Below are positions 45,239 to 55,512 of a DNA stretch of 64,000 bases, one piece after another. Origin of the DNA: Geobacter sp. AOG2 (lineage in GTDB: Bacteria > Desulfobacterota > Desulfuromonadia > Geobacterales > Pseudopelobacteraceae). The stretch is from the NCBI RefSeq assembly GCF_019972295.1, contig NZ_BLJA01000001.1:1-64000 (forward strand), in the 5' to 3' direction. A model generated the notes under the pieces. The model had not been told where the DNA came from. It saw only the letters and a list, made by a program, of their open reading frames with translations, and searched no databases. Position 1 is the stretch's first letter. Every line of letters starts with the position of its first letter. Made by a program: the position numbers and the translations under genes.

Positions 45239-46360
45239 TCAGAGCCTCATCGGCATGATCACTGCCAAGAAGCTGTCCGAATTCTCCGGTACGATGATCG
45301 AGGGGGAGAGTTCATCCCTGAATTTCATCTCGACGCTGTCGGTTTCGGCCACGGCCAGCACGTCCAGAAGATAACGGGCATTGAACCTGACGGAGATCGG
45401 CTCGCCGGTGTAGCTTACGTCGAGATCCTCCATGGCGTCGCCCAGTTCGGGATTGCTCGAGGAGATCTTTATCCCGTCCGGGGTTATCTCCAGCATGATC
45501 CCTTTGAATTTTTCGCTGGAGAGTATGGCCATCCTGCGGACGGAGTGGGTGAAGTTCTCCCTGCTGACCGTGACGATGCGATCGTTGGCCGCGGGGATGA
45601 CCCGATTATAGTCCGGAAACTCACCGTCCACCAGGCGCATGACCATGTAGGAATCGCCCCGCTTGATCACCGCGCTGTTGTCCATGAAGCCGAACAGCAG
45701 GGTGCCGCTGTCCTCCTCGGTGATCTTTTTCATCTCATACACGCCTTTTTTGGGGAGGATGACCCCCTTCAAAAGCTCGGGACCGGCGGTTCCCTTCAGC
45801 GGCCCGGTGGCGATGGACAGGCGATGGCCGTCGGTGGCAACCATTTTGAGGGAGTTTTCACCGTTGCCGTTGACCTCGACCTTGGCGAATATGCCGTTTA
45901 AGTTGTATTTGGTCTCGTCGTTACAAATGGCGTAGGAGGTCTTCTCGATCATCCCCTTCAAAAGGGCGCTCTCGATCTCGAAGAGACTTTCTTCCTTGAT
46001 GTCCGGAAAATAGGGAAACTCGTCGGGAGAAAGCCCGACAATGTTGAATTGCACCTTGCCGCATTTGATCTCCACCCAGTCGTTGTCCTTTGTGGAGAAG
46101 ACGATTGCCTGGTTGGGGAGTTCCTTGACGATCTCATACAGCTTCTTGGCGCCGACCGTAATCCTGCCGGGTGACGCGACCTCGGCCGGATAGGTGCTCT
46201 TCATGCCCACTTCCAGGTCGGTGGCCGTGACGTGGAGTGCGGAATCCGTCGCTTCCAAAAGGACATTTGACAGAATCGGCATGGAGGTCCGCTTTTCCAC
46301 GATGCCCTGGATCTTCTGCAGCGATTTGAGGAACAGTTCCTTATCGATTGTAAATTCCAT
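45239..46360 (-). CDS. dnaN: DNA polymerase III sliding clamp (beta subunit)
   Basis: 373 residues, starting MEFTIDKELFLKSLQKIQGI and ending in the conserved C-terminal 'FLAVIMPMRL'. It forms the dimeric ring that tethers Pol III and repair enzymes to DNA. Typical features are 'RTSMPILSNVLLEATDSALH' near the start and 'VMRLVDGEFPDYNRVIP' in the middle domain. AAGGAGTGACAG precedes the ATG. Its upstream region carries several DnaA-box-like sites. Confidence 0.97.
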   Translation of the reverse strand: MEFTIDKELFLKSLQKIQGIVEKRTSMPILSNVLLEATDSALHVTATDLEVGMKSTYPAEVASPGRITVGAKKLYEIVKELPNQAIVFSTKDNDWVEIKCGKVQFNIVGLSPDEFPYFPDIKEESLFEIESALLKGMIEKTSYAICNDETKYNLNGIFAKVEVNGNGENSLKMVATDGHRLSIATGPLKGTAGPELLKGVILPKKGVYEMKKITEEDSGTLLFGFMDNSAVIKRGDSYMVMRLVDGEFPDYNRVIPAANDRIVTVSRENFTHSVRRMAILSSEKFKGIMLEITPDGIKISSSNPELGDAMEDLDVSYTGEPISVRFNARYLLDVLAVAETDSVEMKFRDELSPSIIVPENSDSFLAVIMPMRL

Positions 46361-49045: not shown

Positions 49046-50650
49046 ATGGAAAAGCGCGCATTTCTGGCAGTCATTCTCTCGATAGCGGTTTTCTACGCAT
49101 TTTCCATGGTCTTTGGACCGGGAAAGAAACCGCTTCCGCAAAAAACCGCTCAGGAAGCGGTCTCTGCCTCCGCGGCGACAACCCCCGCCCCTGAGCCGGC
49201 GGTGCCGCCGGCCGCCGCCGCCAATGGTGCCGCCGTTCAGACGAGCCAGGCCGGCGCGCGGGACGTTACCGTGGATACGGACCTCTACACCGCGGTGTTT
49301 TCTTCCCGCGGCGGGAGCCTCAAAACCCTGACCCTGAAAAAATACCGGGAGGAGAATACCCCCACGGCCAGCCAGGTCGTACTCGGCATCCACTCCGATC
49401 CCTCCCTTCTCAACTTCTCGACCAGGGCTACCGGGATCAACCTCCCGGACGGCACCGTCTTCCAGCCGGACGCCGACAAGATTACGCTGTCCTCCGGCGA
49501 GAGCCGGCAATTGACGTTCAACTACGTATCGGGCCAGGGCTTTACGGTGCGCAAGGTCTACACCTTCGCCGAAGGCTCCTACGGCATCAAGCTGGATACC
49601 CAGGTATTCAACAATTCCGCTGCTCCTTTGGTGGGAGCCATCCAGCAGGTCATGACCTATACCGCCGAACACAAGGTCAAGAACAGCCGTCTCGACGTGT
49701 CCGGGTCCTACATCTACACCGACAACAGCCTCAAGTCCGACAAGACCAAGGATGTGGCCTCCGCATCGAAAAAATACGACCGGAACATCCTCTGGTCCGG
49801 CTTTGCCGACAAATACTTCCTGAGCGCCATTCTGGCCGAGAAGGGGAGCATCTCCTCCGTCGAGGTGAAAAAGAACGCCGCCGGGTTCCTGGAAGCGATC
49901 GTCACCGCCCCCCAGTTCACCATCAATCCGGGGCATGCGGCCACGGTGTCGCAGCGCCTGTTCGTCGGCCCCAAGGACCTCGACATCCTCAAGGCCCAGG
50001 GCGATTCGCTGGAACAGTCCCTTGACCTGGGCTGGTTTACGGTCATAGCCAAGCCGTTGCTCTATACCCTCAAATTCTTCCATCGCTATGTGGGCAACTA
50101 CGGTATCGCCATCATCATCATCACCGTTATCCTCAAGGCGATCTTCTTCCCGCTGACCCACAAGAGCTACAAGTCCATGAAGGGGATGCAGAAGATCCAG
50201 CCGGAGATGAACAAGATCCGCGAGAAGTACAAAAACGACCGCGACGGCATGAACAAGGCGGTCATGGAACTGTACCGCGAGCACAAGGTCAACCCGCTGG
50301 GGGGCTGCCTGCCCATGGTCGTACAGATCCCGGTGTTCTTCGCCCTCTACAGGGCGCTCATGTCTTCCATCGAACTGCGCCACGCGCCGTTCTTCTTCTG
50401 GATCACCGACCTGTCCGACAAGGACCCCTACTACATCACCCCGGTCATCATGGGGATCACCATGTTCGTGCAGCAGAAGATGACCCCCTCCCAGATGGAC
50501 CCGATGCAGCAGAAGATGATGCTGGCCCTGCCGGTGGTGTTCACCTTCATGTTCCTGAGCTTCCCTTCCGGCCTGGTCCTGTACTGGCTGGTGAACAATA
50601 TCCTGACCATCGGCCAGCAGATGTACATCAACAAGCTGGTCAAGGATTGA
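49046..50650 (+). CDS. yidC: Membrane protein insertase YidC
   Basis: 534-residue inner-membrane insertase of the Gram-negative type: N-terminal helix (about 5-22), Pro/Ala-rich linker, a large periplasmic beta-domain (about 70-320) and the conserved five-helix core with '[20 protein letters not shown]', '[20 protein letters not shown]', '[20 protein letters not shown]' and '[20 protein letters not shown]'. A terminator follows. The jag gene, which often follows yidC, is missing here. Confidence 0.96.
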
Positions 50651-50677
50651 CGAACGCCGGCCGTTGCGGCACAATCA

Positions 50678-50709
50678 AAGCGCCCCTGCACAGGCAAGGG
50701 GCGCTTTTT
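50678..50709 (+). terminator. Intrinsic terminator after yidC
   Basis: Perfect AAGCGCCCCT / AGGGGCGCTT stem with a 9-base loop and a T5 tail, 27 bases past the yidC stop. Confidence 0.88.
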
Positions 50710-50730
50710 GCTTTAGAGGTTAAAAAGCTC

Positions 50731-50851
50731 AGGTTGTTCAAAAATAGTCAGATCGTCGCACCCGCAGAAAGCCCTGAGGAGGCGTAGCAGCGCTACGCCG
50801 CACGAAAGGGCTTTCGAGGATGGCGGCGAGATGGCTGTTTTTCAACAACCT
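50731..50851 (+). repeat. Interspersed inverted-repeat element, copy R4 (short form)
   Basis: 121 bp, nearly identical in layout to R1: AGGTTGTTCAAAAATAGTC ... GGCTGTTTTTCAACAACCT with the GCGTAGCAGCGCTACGC core. Its right end lies 17 bases before the start codon of the EndoQ-UvrD gene. Confidence 0.88.
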
Positions 50852-50868
50852 CTTAGGGACACAGTCTA

Positions 50869-53800
50869 ATGGACTACATCGCCGACCTTCATATCCATTC
50901 CCCCTACTCACGGGCCACCAGCCCGGAGAGTAATCCGGCCGGCCTGGCCGGCTGGGCGCGGGTCAAGGGGATCCAGGTGGTCGGCACCGGCGACTTCACT
51001 CACCCCGGCTGGTTCCGCCGCCTCAAGGACGAGTTGGAGCCGGCCGAACCGGGGTTGTTCCGGCTGAAGAATGAGGCCGCCATCCCCTCGCCGCTGCCGG
51101 GGGCAACGCCCCTTGCCGGGCCGGTGCGGTTTCTCCTCTCGGCCGAGATCAGCAGTATCTACAAACGCCACGGCGTGGTGCGCAAGGTCCACAACCTGCT
51201 CTACGTGCCGGACTTTGCCTCTGCCGAGCGGCTGAACGCCAAACTGGCCGGCATCGGCAACATCGAGTCCGACGGCCGCCCCATCCTGGGGCTGGACAGC
51301 CGAAACCTGCTGGAGATCCTGCTGGAAGAGGCTCCCGAAGGGTTCCTGGTTCCGGCCCATATCTGGACCCCCTGGTTCTCCCTGTTCGGTTCGAAATCGG
51401 GCTTCGACGCCATCGAGGAGTGTTTCGACGACCTGACGCCCCACGTCTTTGCCCTGGAGACCGGACTTTCCTCCGACCCGGACATGAACCGGCTCATCTC
51501 CGGCCTGGACCGTTTCGCCCTGATCTCCAACTCGGACTGCCACTCCCCCTCCAAGTTGGGGCGCGAGGCCAACCTCCTGGCCACCGACCTGGATTTTTTC
51601 GCCCTGCGGGACGCCATCAAGGGGAATCGGCGGGATACCTTCCGGGGCACGGTGGAATTCTTCCCCGAAGAGGGTAAGTACCATGCCGACGGCCACCGGG
51701 CCTGCCATGTCTGCCTCGATCCCGTGGAGAGCCGCAGGCTGGGGCTGCGCTGCCCCGTCTGCGGCAGACCCCTGACCATCGGTGTCTATCACCGGGTGAT
51801 GGAACTGGCCGACCGGGAGAAGCCGCTCTACCGCGAGGACGCGCCCAGCGTGTTCAGCCTCATCCCCTTGCCCGAGGTGCTGGGAGAGATCGTCGGGGCG
51901 GGACCGGCCTCCAAGGGGGTCATGGAACAGTACGCCCGCACCATCGGGCGGTTCGGTTCGGAATTCAACCTGTTGCTGCACGCCCCTCTGGAGGAGATCC
52001 GCGAGGCTTCGCCGATCCTGGGAGAGGCCGTGGAACGCATGCGCGCCGGCCGGGTCATCCGCAAACCCGGTTTCGACGGCGAGTACGGCGTGATCAGGGT
52101 CTTCGAGGAAGGCGAGGCGGAACGCCTGGCCGGTCAGGGAAGCCTGTTCGGCGATGGGCCGGCGCCGCGACGCCGGAGAAAGAAGACGGAGGCCGTGGCG
52201 CTGCCTGCCCTGGAGACGGACGCGACGCCTGTCCCTGTCCCCCCGGCGGAATCGTCCGGTCCCAACCCGGAGCAGGCGGCGGCCATCGCCTCCACGAGCC
52301 GTCATACCCTGGTTGCCGCCGGGCCGGGGACCGGTAAAACCACGGCCCTGATAGGACGGGTGGCGACCCTGCTGGCGGCGGGGAACGACCCGGCCCGCAT
52401 GGCGGCCATCACCTTTACCGCCAAGGCGGCCGAGGAGGTGCGCGAGCGCCTGCTGAGGGATGTCGGGCCGGCCGGCATGGGGGTGTTCGTGGGCACCTTC
52501 CACCGGTTTTGTCTCGATTGGCTCCGTCGCGAAACACCCGGTCTGGCGGTGGTCGGCCCGGAGGACCGGGAGCGTCTGTTCAAGCGCCTCTTCCCGGAAC
52601 TGGGCGTGACGGAGCGGAAGCGCCTGGGTGACGAGGTGGCCGATCATTTCATCCAACCGGACGATGAGGTTTCCGAGCCGGTTCAACGCTATCTCGACGA
52701 ACTGGACCGCCTCGTCGCCCTCGATCTGGATGCCGTCATTCCGGCCTTTGTCCAGCGGCTGGGCCGGGAGCCCGGCCTGCGCAGCCGTTTCTGCGACAGC
52801 GTCGGGCACCTCTTCGTTGATGAGTTCCAGGACCTGAACGAAAGTCAATTCGAGCTGGTGGCCATCCTGGCCGACCGGGCCCGGATCTTTGCCATCGGCG
52901 ATCCCGACCAGGCCATCTACGGCTTCCGGGGAAGCGACCTGGAGTTCTTCTTCCGCTTCGGCGGGATGCCGGGTGTCGAGCGGTTATCCCTCACCGGCAA
53001 CTACCGCTGCCCCGCTTCGGTCGTTGCAGCGGCGACGGCGGTCATCGCCCACAACGACAGGCGCAGCGGACTGCCGCTGGCCGCCGTTTCCGGGCGGCGG
53101 GGCGGCATTGAGCTGCATACCGCGCCGACCGGGGCGGCCGAGGCCGAATTCATCGTGCGCCGTATCGAGGAGTTGATGGGGGGCATCGAACACTTTTCCC
53201 TCCATTCCGGTCGGGGCGGGGACGGCGAAACAGGACGGGGATTGGGGTTCGGCGACCTGGCTGTGCTCTTCCGGCTCGGCAGGCAGGCCGAGGAGGTTGC
53301 CGCCGCCCTGGAACGGCGCGGCATACCGTACCAGCAGGTCGGGGTCACGCCCTTTTACCTTGCCCCGGAGATACGGGCGGCCTATTATTGGGTGCAGGCG
53401 GCCGCCGGGTCGGAGACCATAGCCGATTGGCTTCAGCTTGCAAGCGCCCTTCCGGGGATCGGGGCGGCCGGTATCGGGCGGATGGAGGCGGCACTCCCCC
53501 TGACGGGCGATTTCTTCGCCTCCCTTTCCGGCCGGGAGTTGCCCCAGGGGTTGCGCGGCGCTCTCCTTGACCTGGAGCGGTCCCTGGGCCGGTTTCGTGC
53601 CGCCGCCTGCAGCGGCCTGGCCGCGGCGCTGCTCGACGTGCTGCCGTACCTGTCCGTGGACCCGGCTCAGACCGTCACGGGGAGATTCCTGGATCTGGCC
53701 GGCAGCTTCGGCGGCGACCTGAAGGGGTTCGGCAGCCACCTGCGTCGCTATGCCGAGGCCACGGTCTACGACGAACGGGCCGAGGCCGTCGCCCTCATGA

Positions 53801-54114
53801 CCCTGCATGCCGCCAAGGGACTGGAGTTCCCGGTTGTATTCCTGGCGGGCGCGGAGGAAGGCCTGCTTCCCTGTTCTCTCTGGCGGGATGTGGATGTCGA
53901 GGAGGAGCGCCGGCTGTTCTACGTCGGCCTTACCCGCGCCAGGGAGCGGGTGATTGTGACCTCCGCCGTCAACAGGCCGTGGGTTGGGGCATCCCCCCGT
54001 CAACGCTCCCGGTTTGTCGCCGAGATCCCGCGACCGTTGCTGACGGATGCGCCCGCAGGTCCGGCCAGGAAAACGAAGGGTGCGCAGGACCCGGGACAGA
54101 TGGACCTGTTTTGA
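50869..54114 (+). CDS. EndoQ-like PHP endonuclease fused to a UvrD/Rep-type helicase
   Basis: 1081 residues. N-terminal PHP-type phosphoesterase (about 1-420): 'DLHIHSPYSRAT' (metal His), 'HIWTPWFSLFGSKSGF', 'ISNSDCHSPSKLG', and a zinc finger with CHVC near 278 and CPVC near 295. This matches endonuclease Q, which nicks DNA 5' to deaminated bases. A linker with QGSLF (423-427) leads to a superfamily-1 helicase: Walker A 'AAGPGTGKTTALI' (about 483), 'FVDEFQDLNESQ' (about 650), 'GDPDQAIYGFRGSD', 'LTLHAAKGLEFPVVF'-like motif V and 'VGLTRARERV' (VI). The protein ends in QMDLF, a sliding-clamp-binding-type pentapeptide. A repair role for deaminated DNA is inferred. The ATG has only a weak AGGGAC ribosome site, just beyond repeat R4. 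Confidence 0.85.
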   Translation: MDYIADLHIHSPYSRATSPESNPAGLAGWARVKGIQVVGTGDFTHPGWFRRLKDELEPAEPGLFRLKNEAAIPSPLPGATPLAGPVRFLLSAEISSIYKRHGVVRKVHNLLYVPDFASAERLNAKLAGIGNIESDGRPILGLDSRNLLEILLEEAPEGFLVPAHIWTPWFSLFGSKSGFDAIEECFDDLTPHVFALETGLSSDPDMNRLISGLDRFALISNSDCHSPSKLGREANLLATDLDFFALRDAIKGNRRDTFRGTVEFFPEEGKYHADGHRACHVCLDPVESRRLGLRCPVCGRPLTIGVYHRVMELADREKPLYREDAPSVFSLIPLPEVLGEIVGAGPASKGVMEQYARTIGRFGSEFNLLLHAPLEEIREASPILGEAVERMRAGRVIRKPGFDGEYGVIRVFEEGEAERLAGQGSLFGDGPAPRRRRKKTEAVALPALETDATPVPVPPAESSGPNPEQAAAIASTSRHTLVAAGPGTGKTTALIGRVATLLAAGNDPARMAAITFTAKAAEEVRERLLRDVGPAGMGVFVGTFHRFCLDWLRRETPGLAVVGPEDRERLFKRLFPELGVTERKRLGDEVADHFIQPDDEVSEPVQRYLDELDRLVALDLDAVIPAFVQRLGREPGLRSRFCDSVGHLFVDEFQDLNESQFELVAILADRARIFAIGDPDQAIYGFRGSDLEFFFRFGGMPGVERLSLTGNYRCPASVVAAATAVIAHNDRRSGLPLAAVSGRRGGIELHTAPTGAAEAEFIVRRIEELMGGIEHFSLHSGRGGDGETGRGLGFGDLAVLFRLGRQAEEVAAALERRGIPYQQVGVTPFYLAPEIRAAYYWVQAAAGSETIADWLQLASALPGIGAAGIGRMEAALPLTGDFFASLSGRELPQGLRGALLDLERSLGRFRAAACSGLAAALLDVLPYLSVDPAQTVTGRFLDLAGSFGGDLKGFGSHLRRYAEATVYDERAEAVALMTLHAAKGLEFPVVFLAGAEEGLLPCSLWRDVDVEEERRLFYVGLTRARERVIVTSAVNRPWVGASPRQRSRFVAEIPRPLLTDAPAGPARKTKGAQDPGQMDLF

Positions 54115-54141: not shown

Positions 54142-55512
54142 ATGTATATTGAGGACACCATCGCAGCCATCAGCACCCCCCAGGGCGAGGGGGGTATCGG
54201 CATCGTGCGCATCAGCGGCGGCAGTGCCGAGGCAATCGGCCTGCGGCTCTTCCGTTTCCGCACGGGCGGCGCCTTTACCGATCATTTTCTGCACTACGGC
54301 ACGGTGGTGGCGCCGGATGACGGCAGCGTGCTGGACGAGGCCATGGCGGTCCTGATGCGGGCGCCCCGTTCCTATACCCGCGAGGACGTGCTGGAACTGC
54401 ACTGCCATGGCGGCATGCTGGTGGTGGAGCGCGTTCTGGCCAAGGTCCTGGACTGCGGTGCGCGTCTGGCCGAACCGGGCGAATTCACCCGCCGGGCCTT
54501 CATCAACGGCAGGATCGACCTGGTGCAGGCCGAGGCGGTCATGGATGTGATCGCCGCCAAGACCGATGCGTCCCTGGCCCTTGCCCAGCGGCAGCGTACC
54601 GGCGCGCTCTCCGCCAGGATCGAAGCCATCCGCCAGGGGTTGACGAGGAGCCTTGCCTTTATCGAGGCCTCCATAGATTTCCCCGAAGACGACATCGGGG
54701 AGACCGACACGCTGGCCCTGCGGTCGGGCGTTGCCGATGCCCTGGAGGAACTCGGCAGGTTGCTGGCCGGTTTCGACGAAGGGCGCATCCTGAGGGACGG
54801 GATTTCCGTATTGATCGTCGGCAAGCCCAATGCCGGGAAATCCAGTCTGCTCAACCGCCTGCTCAAGGAAAACCGCGCCATTGTCACCCATATACCCGGC
54901 ACGACCCGCGACATCATCGAGGAAACCGTCAACATGGGGGGGCTGGCGGTCCGCCTGCTGGACACGGCCGGTATCCGCCACACGGATGACGTTGTGGAGC
55001 GCGAAGGGATCAGCCGCGCCCTGGACAAGATCCCCCAGGCCGATCTGGTGCTGTTCGTGCTCGATTCGTCACGGCCGTTCACGGATGAGGATCGACTGAT
55101 CCTGGACGCCGTGACGGGGAAAACGGCCATAGCGGTGTTGAACAAGAGCGACCTTCCGCCGGTTCTGGAACTGCCCCCCGAGTTGGCGGCGCTGCCCCGC
55201 GTCGCCCTGTCCGCCGGCACCGGTGCCGGCATCGACGGACTTCGGGAGGTGATCCGCACCACCTTTCTGCACGGGGCGGCCCTGGACAGTCGCGAATTCG
55301 TGGCCATCTCCCGTGCCCGTCATCGCGACGCCCTGGCCTCGGCCCATTCGATCCTCCGGCTGTTTCTTGCGGGCCTGGGCGAGGGTCGGGAGTTGGAAAC
55401 CCTGGCCATCGACCTGCGCGACGCCCTGGCTGCCGTGGGTCAGGTCACCGGGGAAACCACCACGGACGATGTCCTGGACGTGGTCTTCTCGTCATTCTGT
55501 ATCGGAAAATGA
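54142..55512 (+). CDS. mnmE: tRNA modification GTPase MnmE
   Basis: 456 residues; with MnmG it adds the carboxymethylaminomethyl group to wobble U34 of certain tRNAs. N-terminal tetrahydrofolate-binding domain ('[20 protein letters not shown]'), helical domain, inserted GTPase with G1 '[16 protein letters not shown]' (about 226), G2/G3 'IPGTTRD' and 'LLDTAGIR', G4 'NKSD', and the C-terminal 'CIGK' with catalytic Cys. Length equals E. coli MnmE to within two residues. It starts 27 bases after the EndoQ-UvrD gene. Confidence 0.96.

Follow-up and report, generated by a model that had tools for sequence, protein, structure and literature searches.

PfuEndoQ, the reference for the nuclease part of the protein described here, incises DNA on the 5' side of a lesion and leaves a 3'-OH and a 5'-phosphate. 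SF1A helicases of the UvrD/PcrA type unwind DNA with 3'-to-5' polarity, and the bacterial clamp-binding consensus is a pentapeptide of the QL[SD]LF type. In TkoEndoQ, a C-terminal PIP box confers PCNA binding and stimulation, and clamp motifs have been noted in bacterial EndoQs (Shiraishi et al., PMC4858679). Models of the route from an EndoQ nick to completed repair invoke displacement by a polymerase or by an unnamed helicase: one passes through nicking, strand displacement, and flap removal, and the other has a helicase step (PMC4357722). Our literature search found no description of an EndoQ-helicase fusion.

We describe such a fusion in Geobacter sp. AOG2 (assembly GCF_019972295.1), in a window of 64,000 nucleotides (contig NZ_BLJA01000001.1, positions 1 to 64,000, forward strand). 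The reading frame starts with ATG, contains no internal stops, and lies 4.5 kb from dnaN. The features of the locus are these:

45239..46360, minus strand: dnaN, sliding clamp, presumed partner (ORF; name read from sequence)
49046..50650, plus strand: yidC, upstream neighbor, 218-base gap to the fusion (ORF; name from sequence)
50869..54114, plus strand: EndoQ-UvrD fusion protein, 1081 aa (ORF; Pfam, NCBIfam, and phmmer matches)
50869..52149, plus strand: EndoQ module, residues 1-427 (phmmer to PfuEndoQ; predicted fold against 5zb8_B)
51694..51762, plus strand: predicted zinc site H276-x2-C279 ... C295-x2-C298 (alignment to PfuEndoQ)
52135..52149, plus strand: junction pentapeptide QGSLF, residues 423-427 (sequence; equivalent to the C terminus of separate EndoQ genes)
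52150..52254, plus strand: disordered linker, residues 428-462, 35 residues (pLDDT <50 at 425-462)
52255..54060, plus strand: SF1A UvrD/PcrA-type helicase module, residues 463-1064 (Pfam UvrD domains; predicted fold)
52321..52341, plus strand: Walker A GPGTGKT, residues 485-491 (alignment of fusions)
54097..54111, plus strand: C-terminal pentapeptide QMDLF, residues 1077-1081, extreme C terminus (sequence; aligned columns)
54142..55512, plus strand: mnmE, downstream neighbor, 27-base gap to the fusion (ORF; name from sequence)

Used as a probe, the dnaN of the window recovered the Pfam-confirmed beta clamp of locus L121. Its closeness to the fusion may be a mere consequence of the oriC region, although dnaN is also present within the fetched flanks of 9 of 104 other fusion loci. 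No recurrent neighbor gene was widespread at these loci: dnaN is the most frequent, followed by a cluster whose representative matches RdgC (at 8) and gyrB (at 7). The yidC-fusion-mnmE placement is retained in genomes of the same genus and in some of the same family.

Nuclease and helicase modules

The initial annotation had read the gene as an EndoQ-like nuclease joined to a complete UvrD-type helicase, and sequence matches and predicted folds bear this out. Residues 5-414 match PfuEndoQ (5zb8) with an E value of 1.4e-53 by phmmer. The predicted structure of residues 1-427 has the EndoQ fold, aligning to 5zb8_B over 389 residues (Z 39.0, rmsd 3.1), with low-confidence stretches at 168-176 and 266-269. 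The Pfam PHP model gave no match to the N-terminal part of the fusion. NCBIfam TIGR00375 matches at E 1.8e-50, yet its 172.4 bits fall short of the curated cut-off, 326.6; that cut-off omits these bacterial EndoQs altogether, because none of 395 genomes of the host's phylum passes it.

By alignment, E76, H84, H139, E167, G169, and S171 of PfuEndoQ correspond to E93, H108, H164, E197, G199, and S201 of the fusion, and the D and H of the PfuEndoQ SDAH motif to D223 and H225. All eight residues are identical in 116 of 116 complete, distinct fusions, a result that for H164, G199, and S201 is partly circular in 75 of them, because these positions were part of the peptide patterns used to retrieve those sequences; the remaining 41 were obtained by BLAST or profile searches. 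Zinc ligands C279, C295, and C298 are present in every fusion, and H276 replaces the first Cys of PfuEndoQ (His in 114/116, Cys in 2/116). On this alignment, the EndoQ module is complete, with the catalytic and base-recognition residues of PfuEndoQ and a predicted four-ligand metal site in which one Cys has become His; the loss of metal ligands that the initial annotation had considered is not seen.

The C-terminal part matches Pfam UvrD-helicase (8.1e-47) and UvrD_C (1.2e-36), as well as PcrA (1pjr, E 3.9e-62); a match to Gabija GajB (E 2e-14) is much weaker than those to UvrD/PcrA. Its predicted fold aligns to Deinococcus radiodurans UvrD (4c2u_A) over 578 residues (Z 47.0, rmsd 4.9). Walker A residues G487, G489, K490, and T491 are kept in all 116 fusions, and chosen residues of what we take to be helicase motifs I to VI in 113 to 116 of them, with the exception of Y1018 (Tyr in 89, Phe in 27). 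The UvrD/PcrA SF1A core motifs and fold are thus present, and the scores for the UvrD/PcrA/Rep equivalogs lie below the curated cut-offs (TIGR01073, 275 of 911 bits; TIGR01075, 247 of 1144; TIGR01074, 233 of 951). The structure prediction has a pTM of 0.54, and we therefore leave the placement of nuclease relative to helicase uninterpreted.

Clamp-type pentapeptides

Both pentapeptides are found where they had first been noted, QGSLF at the end of the nuclease module and QMDLF at the extreme C terminus, the latter in a tail predicted with pLDDT <50. Across the 116 fusions, Q..LF lies within the last 15 residues of 85 (112 in relaxed form), compared with a mean of 1.25 and a maximum of 6 in 200 shuffles of the tails and a mean of 0.8 in random windows; the aligned columns keep Q in 114, L in 110, and F in 94. 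Within the 45-residue junction, 61 fusions carry the strict motif and 72 the relaxed one, compared with a shuffled mean of 1.2 (maximum, 5) and a mean of 2.8 (maximum, 7) in random windows of equal length. Chance pentapeptides are ruled out by these counts, 85 and 61 against about 1 to 3 expected. At the junction, L (101/116) and F (96/116) are better kept than Q (73/116), and the motif has been lost from family f38, a clade with short linkers, and varies in the others.

As far as sequence comparison goes, the C-terminal pentapeptide is real and conserved far beyond chance, and it would dock on DnaN; the junction pentapeptide is less universal. The conservation at issue in the initial annotation therefore holds for the first, with alterations in some odd fusions, and is weaker for the second. 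Eight later fused frames (L208-L215), chosen as low scoring or odd, include two with a Q..LF end and six in which it is altered or absent; among them, L213 ends early and L212 extends to 1267 aa. Actinobacterial fusions end in QLRLI or QLSLL, and three of the four fusions examined from family f46 have altered ends (HLSLL and PLSLL). A clamp-type C terminus was found in none of 20 canonical UvrD/PcrA/Rep paralogues and in 30 of 33 stand-alone EndoQs from other families of the phylum; none of 12 stand-alone EndoQs of the host's order has the motif in its last 15 residues.

Distribution, origin, and uracil repair context

The survey of phyla that the initial annotation had proposed yielded, by peptide-pattern search, 75 complete fusions that span 15 named phyla. 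In the host's phylum, at least 96 of the 395 genomes sampled carry the fusion (profile match spanning both parts, start ≤208 and end ≥838, no internal stop), and at least 103 do with internal stops allowed. The set of 116 consists of 75 of the 80 pattern-fetched loci and the 41 others. Left out of the 80 were L125, L131, and L157 (cut), L133 (two genes), and L175 (898 aa), and left out beside the 41 were L006 (frameshift near the C terminus), L071, L016, and L017 (cut), and L083 (frame not found). Presence in many genomes and phyla rules out a local one-off fusion or misassembly. A mobile gene is ruled out at the limits used, as the fusion has no match in 72,556 plasmids (E 1e-40) and the EndoQ part none in 50,697 phages (E 1e-5). 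Many EndoQ-bearing genomes are without the fusion.

At six loci, an EndoQ gene is followed by an adjacent helicase gene, and both products end in a clamp-type motif. In the helicase tree, built without fusions L101, L102, L104, and L108 (Walker A pattern of the script), the helicases linked to EndoQ cluster together and are separated from the 20 canonical paralogues with support of 100. A quick EndoQ tree held 110 of 163 rows after thinning at 80% identity. In a careful tree of 76 rows (42 of 80 thinned fusions, 20 named and 22 random; 28 stand-alone; 6 two-gene; L034 removed as a long branch), a branch supported at 100/99 has all 42 fused EndoQs on the same side. Comparison of the loci and the tree indicate that the fusion most likely arose from two adjacent genes, one for EndoQ and one for a dedicated helicase, and that it carries one internal and one terminal motif because both parent genes ended in one of their own. 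Within the host's order, EndoQ seems to have been retained while the helicase was lost (L018 and L019); a helicase of this kind adjoining stand-alone EndoQ was absent at 12 of 13 loci with flanks of 9 to 16 kb.

The host genome also has an ordinary uracil-DNA glycosylase (UDG), so the fusion need not be its sole uracil repair; no EndoV was found in that genome. We rejected the idea that EndoQ and UDG generally trade off against each other: by hand count, 21 of the 42 genomes without UDG and 234 of the 353 with UDG have EndoQ-family matches, and such a pattern is seen only in family f46. There, none of the 16 sampled genomes has a member of the UDG superfamily, and every one has an EndoQ-family match; among the matches listed, 13 of 16 have a single match over nuclease and helicase, and 2 more have frames of >1100 aa. 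The four f46 fusions examined have intact catalytic and helicase motifs, and an apparent lack of Walker A in f46 helicases, a regular-expression result, was overturned by alignment, in which GPGAGKT is intact.

Proposed mechanism and alternatives

We consider it probable that the fusion is a clamp-tethered incision and unwinding protein for deaminated bases; its activity, clamp binding, and polarity are what we infer. Judging from its conserved residues, the EndoQ module would flip out uracil, hypoxanthine, or an AP site and nick immediately 5' of it, which would leave a 3'-OH and a 5'-phosphate. If it shares the polarity of its SF1A family, the helicase would load at the nick, move 3' to 5' on the intact strand, and displace the downstream strand, whose 5' end bears the lesion, in the same direction as a polymerase extending the 3'-OH. 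The C-terminal QxxLF, in the host's lineage together with the junction motif, would hold the protein on the DnaN clamp, and such tethering could confine to one site the cut, the strand displacement, and the transfer to polymerase, flap nuclease, and ligase. These last three must come from elsewhere, because the fusion shows no domain for a polymerase, 5' flap nuclease, or ligase, and to call it a "self-contained" machine, as was done initially, was an overstatement.

More tentatively, it is possible that one clamp-bound polypeptide nicks and unwinds in a widespread, unrecognized bacterial excision pathway, that its two motifs engage both pockets of the clamp ring, and that it serves as the principal uracil repair in bacteria without UDG. 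The altered C termini of three of the four f46 fusions examined argue against bivalent tethering.

A helicase that acts before the cut is unlikely. It would track along DNA, perhaps behind the fork on the clamp, and open the duplex to let EndoQ check the single strands for uracil and hypoxanthine, the cut ending its run. EndoQ acts on both single-stranded and duplex DNA (PMC8307549), the clamp-type motifs are compatible with replication-coupled scanning, and the 35-residue disordered linker gives reach; a nick in single-stranded DNA at the fork would, however, produce a break, and published EndoQ models place displacement or unwinding after the nick (PMC4357722).

It is distinctly unlikely that the pentapeptides bind a partner other than DnaN (such as SSB, RNA polymerase, or MutL), or that the one at the junction is left over from unfused EndoQ. 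The assignment to DnaN is by motif resemblance only, and the actinobacterial and f46 ends and the less-kept junction Q fit such alternatives, but a QxxLF sequence that closes a disordered tail suits a clamp motif, and the archaeal counterpart TkoEndoQ binds PCNA (PMC4858679).

We find it quite doubtful that the nuclease has shifted to AP sites, oxidized pyrimidines, or helix distortions, as a mini nucleotide-excision enzyme. The host's UDG would accord with this, as would the action of PfuEndoQ on AP sites and oxidized pyrimidines (PMC8307549); against it, the residues reported to keep T and A out (Pfu H139, G169, and S171; PMC8307549) are unchanged in the fusion, and PfuEndoQ left CPD and 6-4 photoproducts uncut (PMC4357722). 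Defense against phages with uracil- or hypoxanthine-containing DNA, despite the possible antiviral role raised for Bacillus EndoQ (PMC8307549) and the GajB match, is very improbable given the retained chromosomal yidC-mnmE site and the lack of plasmid and phage matches at the E-value limits given above.

Returning to the reading of incision followed by clamp-tethered unwinding, we regard the dedicated helicase, encoded next to EndoQ in some bacteria and joined to it across many phyla, as a strong candidate for the factor missing after the EndoQ nick, and the fusion makes the postnick question testable with one purified protein. With PfuEndoQ, TkoEndoQ, and Bacillus EndoQ it shares the whole module, the catalytic, recognition, and zinc positions, and a clamp-type motif after the nuclease; it differs in carrying a helicase, in the His in place of the first zinc Cys, and in having that motif internal with a second one after the helicase. 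With UvrD, PcrA, and Rep it shares the SF1A core motifs and fold, but its helicase falls in a separate tree group, and a clamp-type tail replaces the PcrA-type C-terminal end, where a Tudor domain has been placed (PMC7585439 and PMC5397179). Like the alternative excision repair of EndoV, UVDE, and Mth212 (PMC4357722), it would make a single nick beside the lesion without a glycosylase; unlike them, it has an unwinding motor in the same polypeptide.

Architecture and active site of the fusion

The initial annotation described an EndoQ-like nuclease joined to a complete UvrD-type helicase and carrying two clamp-binding-type pentapeptides. We find both modules in one open reading frame, and the pentapeptides lie where they had been placed.

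50651-50868, past yidC: terminator-like hairpin with a T run (seen by eye)
50869-54114, forward strand: fusion, 1081 aa
residues 1-427: EndoQ module, almost full-length match to archaeal PfuEndoQ (E 1.4e-53 over 5-414)
residues 423-427: junction pentapeptide QGSLF
residues 463-1064: complete SF1A helicase
residues 1077-1081: C-terminal pentapeptide QMDLF

The predicted fold of the EndoQ module matches 5zb8_B (Z 39.0, rmsd 3.1 over 389 residues) and that of the helicase module matches Deinococcus radiodurans UvrD (Z 47.0, rmsd 4.9 over 578 residues); pLDDT falls below 50 across the linker region (425-462) and in the last 17 residues (1065-1081). The hairpin after yidC raises the possibility that the fusion is transcribed from a start of its own, with mnmE 27 bases downstream.

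The EndoQ assignment holds at the metal ligands. Metal-ligand, conserved, and recognition residues of the Pfu enzyme, as named in PMC4357722 and PMC8307549, each align with the same amino acid in the window protein. All of those checked across the 116 complete distinct fusions are invariant, apart from H8 (His in 115), although agreement at H164, G199, and S201 is partly circular in 75 rows, since PAH[IV]WTPW and GLSSDPxMN were the patterns used to retrieve these; the other 41 came from BLAST or profile searches. The SDAH motif of PfuEndoQ (numbered 191-194 in the text of the paper and 192-195 in the chain used for alignment) reads SDCH in the window protein. Its zinc site comprises H276, C279, C295, and C298, the first position being His in 114 of the 116 fusions and Cys in 2.

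Conservation of the clamp-type motifs

Conservation of the pentapeptides across orthologues stands for the C-terminal motif and is weaker for the junction motif. Q..LF occurs within the last 15 residues of 85/116 fusions (shuffled tails, mean 1.25; random 15-residue windows, 0.8), and the relaxed form Q..[LMIF][FLIMWY] in 112/116 (6.5 and 2.9, respectively); Q1077 and F1081 are invariant in the 31 rows of alignment A1. Four tails do not fit the relaxed form; they end in TASLF, QLPLKF, or QMSFDF or extend beyond QLSLL. Within the 45-residue junction, 61/116 fusions have the strict form and 72/116 the relaxed form, where shuffling gives means of 1.2 and 7.2, respectively, and random windows 2.8 and 11.3. 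Eight fused frames outside the 116, from family f46 of the window's phylum and other low-scoring genomes, follow the pattern less consistently, with Q..LF in 2/8. Of the four f46 rows (L208-L211), three have ends altered to HLSLL or PLSLL forms, although catalytic and helicase motifs are retained in the four. Short-linker fusions of family f38 (L059, L061, L063, L070, L072, L073, and L082) have lost the junction motif and kept the C-terminal one.

Of 20 canonical UvrD/PcrA/Rep paralogues from the window's own order, not one carries either motif form within its last 15 residues. Among stand-alone EndoQs, Q..LF is present in the last 15 residues of 30/33 proteins from other families of the phylum and 0/12 from the own order, where some tails look like decayed junctions (SLYGD in L019, SVFGE in L093).

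Distribution and origin

Among the matches listed, an intact full-length fusion is found in 12 of 57 genomes (the window's own and relatives). A thirteenth, in same-genus genome G003 (L006), has a helicase frameshift near the C terminus, which is either a sequencing error or a real change. In two other genomes of the genus, G001 and G004, a stand-alone EndoQ occupies the fusion's place with mnmE next; G004 also has yidC upstream. Genome G019 carries both a fusion (L007) and a second, stand-alone EndoQ (L093). Across the phylum, a TIGR00375 match (E 0.001 or better) occurs in 255/395 genomes and a fused frame in at least 96. The curated cut-off of this NCBIfam model shuts out every match in the 395, which may explain the lack of a name for these proteins.

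Carrier phyla were also surveyed, as the initial annotation suggested. A scan of 84,980 species genomes gave at least 590 confirmed relatives, of which the best 80 were kept; these included 75 complete fusions. They come from 15 named phyla, together with contigs titled KSB1, Aerophobetes, or unplaced; the names are those of record titles, mostly of MAGs (6/8 Myxococcota rows are titled Deltaproteobacteria only). The firmest hosts are cultured actinobacteria (Micromonospora, Salinispora, and Saccharopolyspora) and Desulfonema magnum, from a complete genome. The plasmid collection gave no match at E 1e-40, and the phage collection no match to the EndoQ part. In lineages other than the window's, dnaN lies in the flanking DNA of the fusion at L068, L088, L099, L100, L103, L107, L110, L121, and L139, several with gyrB and an RdgC-like gene also nearby.

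The two modules also occur as adjacent genes. At L133, on a Nitrospirae contig, the EndoQ product ends in KGQGTLF, and nine bases past its stop codon lies the ATG of a 650-aa helicase that ends in PQMGLF. The same order is seen in f59 genomes (L198, L199, L200, and L204) and an f73 genome (L216), with EndoQ ends QATLF, QTMLF, QMPLL, QMRLL, and QLKLF and helicase ends QMKLF (three times), QMELFS, and QLSLFSR. At L205, a helicase match lies beside an EndoQ gene that has a separate stop codon; dnaN is in the flank of that EndoQ gene. Around EndoQ in L201 (f59), in L202 and L203 (both f31), and in nine further stand-alone loci, the 9 to 16 kb searched showed no such helicase, and these 12 loci count against a fixed pairing.

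In a careful 76-row EndoQ tree, a branch supported at 100/99 separates all 42 fused rows, among which 10 stand-alone rows are nested, from 6 two-gene and 18 stand-alone rows. A quick 110-row tree is concordant, uniting 80 fused and 10 stand-alone rows (support, 95). The simplest reading of these sequences is a single fusion event with several later losses of the helicase, although change counts by themselves cannot separate gain from loss. In a quick helicase tree, helicases linked to EndoQ, whether fused or separate, cluster together apart from the 20 canonical paralogues (support, 100); within that cluster the fused ones group with a support of only 51.

Repair context and comparison with known systems

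The UDG superfamily (PF03167) has no match in 42 of the phylum's 395 genomes. Sixteen of these are the sampled f46 genomes, all 99-100% complete and all with an EndoQ-family match: 13 span nuclease and helicase, 2 more lie in frames of 1156 and 1387 aa, and one is ambiguous. EndoQ-family matches occur in 21/42 UDG-lacking versus 234/353 UDG-bearing genomes, so there is no general relation between the two. The window's own genome has a UDG and no EndoV match. A literature search on UDG in Desulfovibrio found nothing of use.

UvrD-family helicases have 3'->5' polarity. EndoQ cuts 5' of the lesion, leaving 3'-OH and 5'-P, as described in PMC4357722. The downstream strand therefore carries the lesion at its 5' end. 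From the nick, a 3'->5' helicase on the intact strand would travel in the direction of repair synthesis and would lift precisely the lesion-bearing strand. Clamp tethering would hold the protein at the nick for passage to polymerase, flap nuclease, and ligase; the window protein contains none of the three.

The literature searched, with subscription journals thinly covered, held no description of an EndoQ-helicase fusion or gene pair. The clamp part of the idea has been published: PMC4858679 reports that TkoEndoQ binds PCNA via a C-terminal motif, with its cutting stimulated, and remarks on clamp motifs in bacterial EndoQs.
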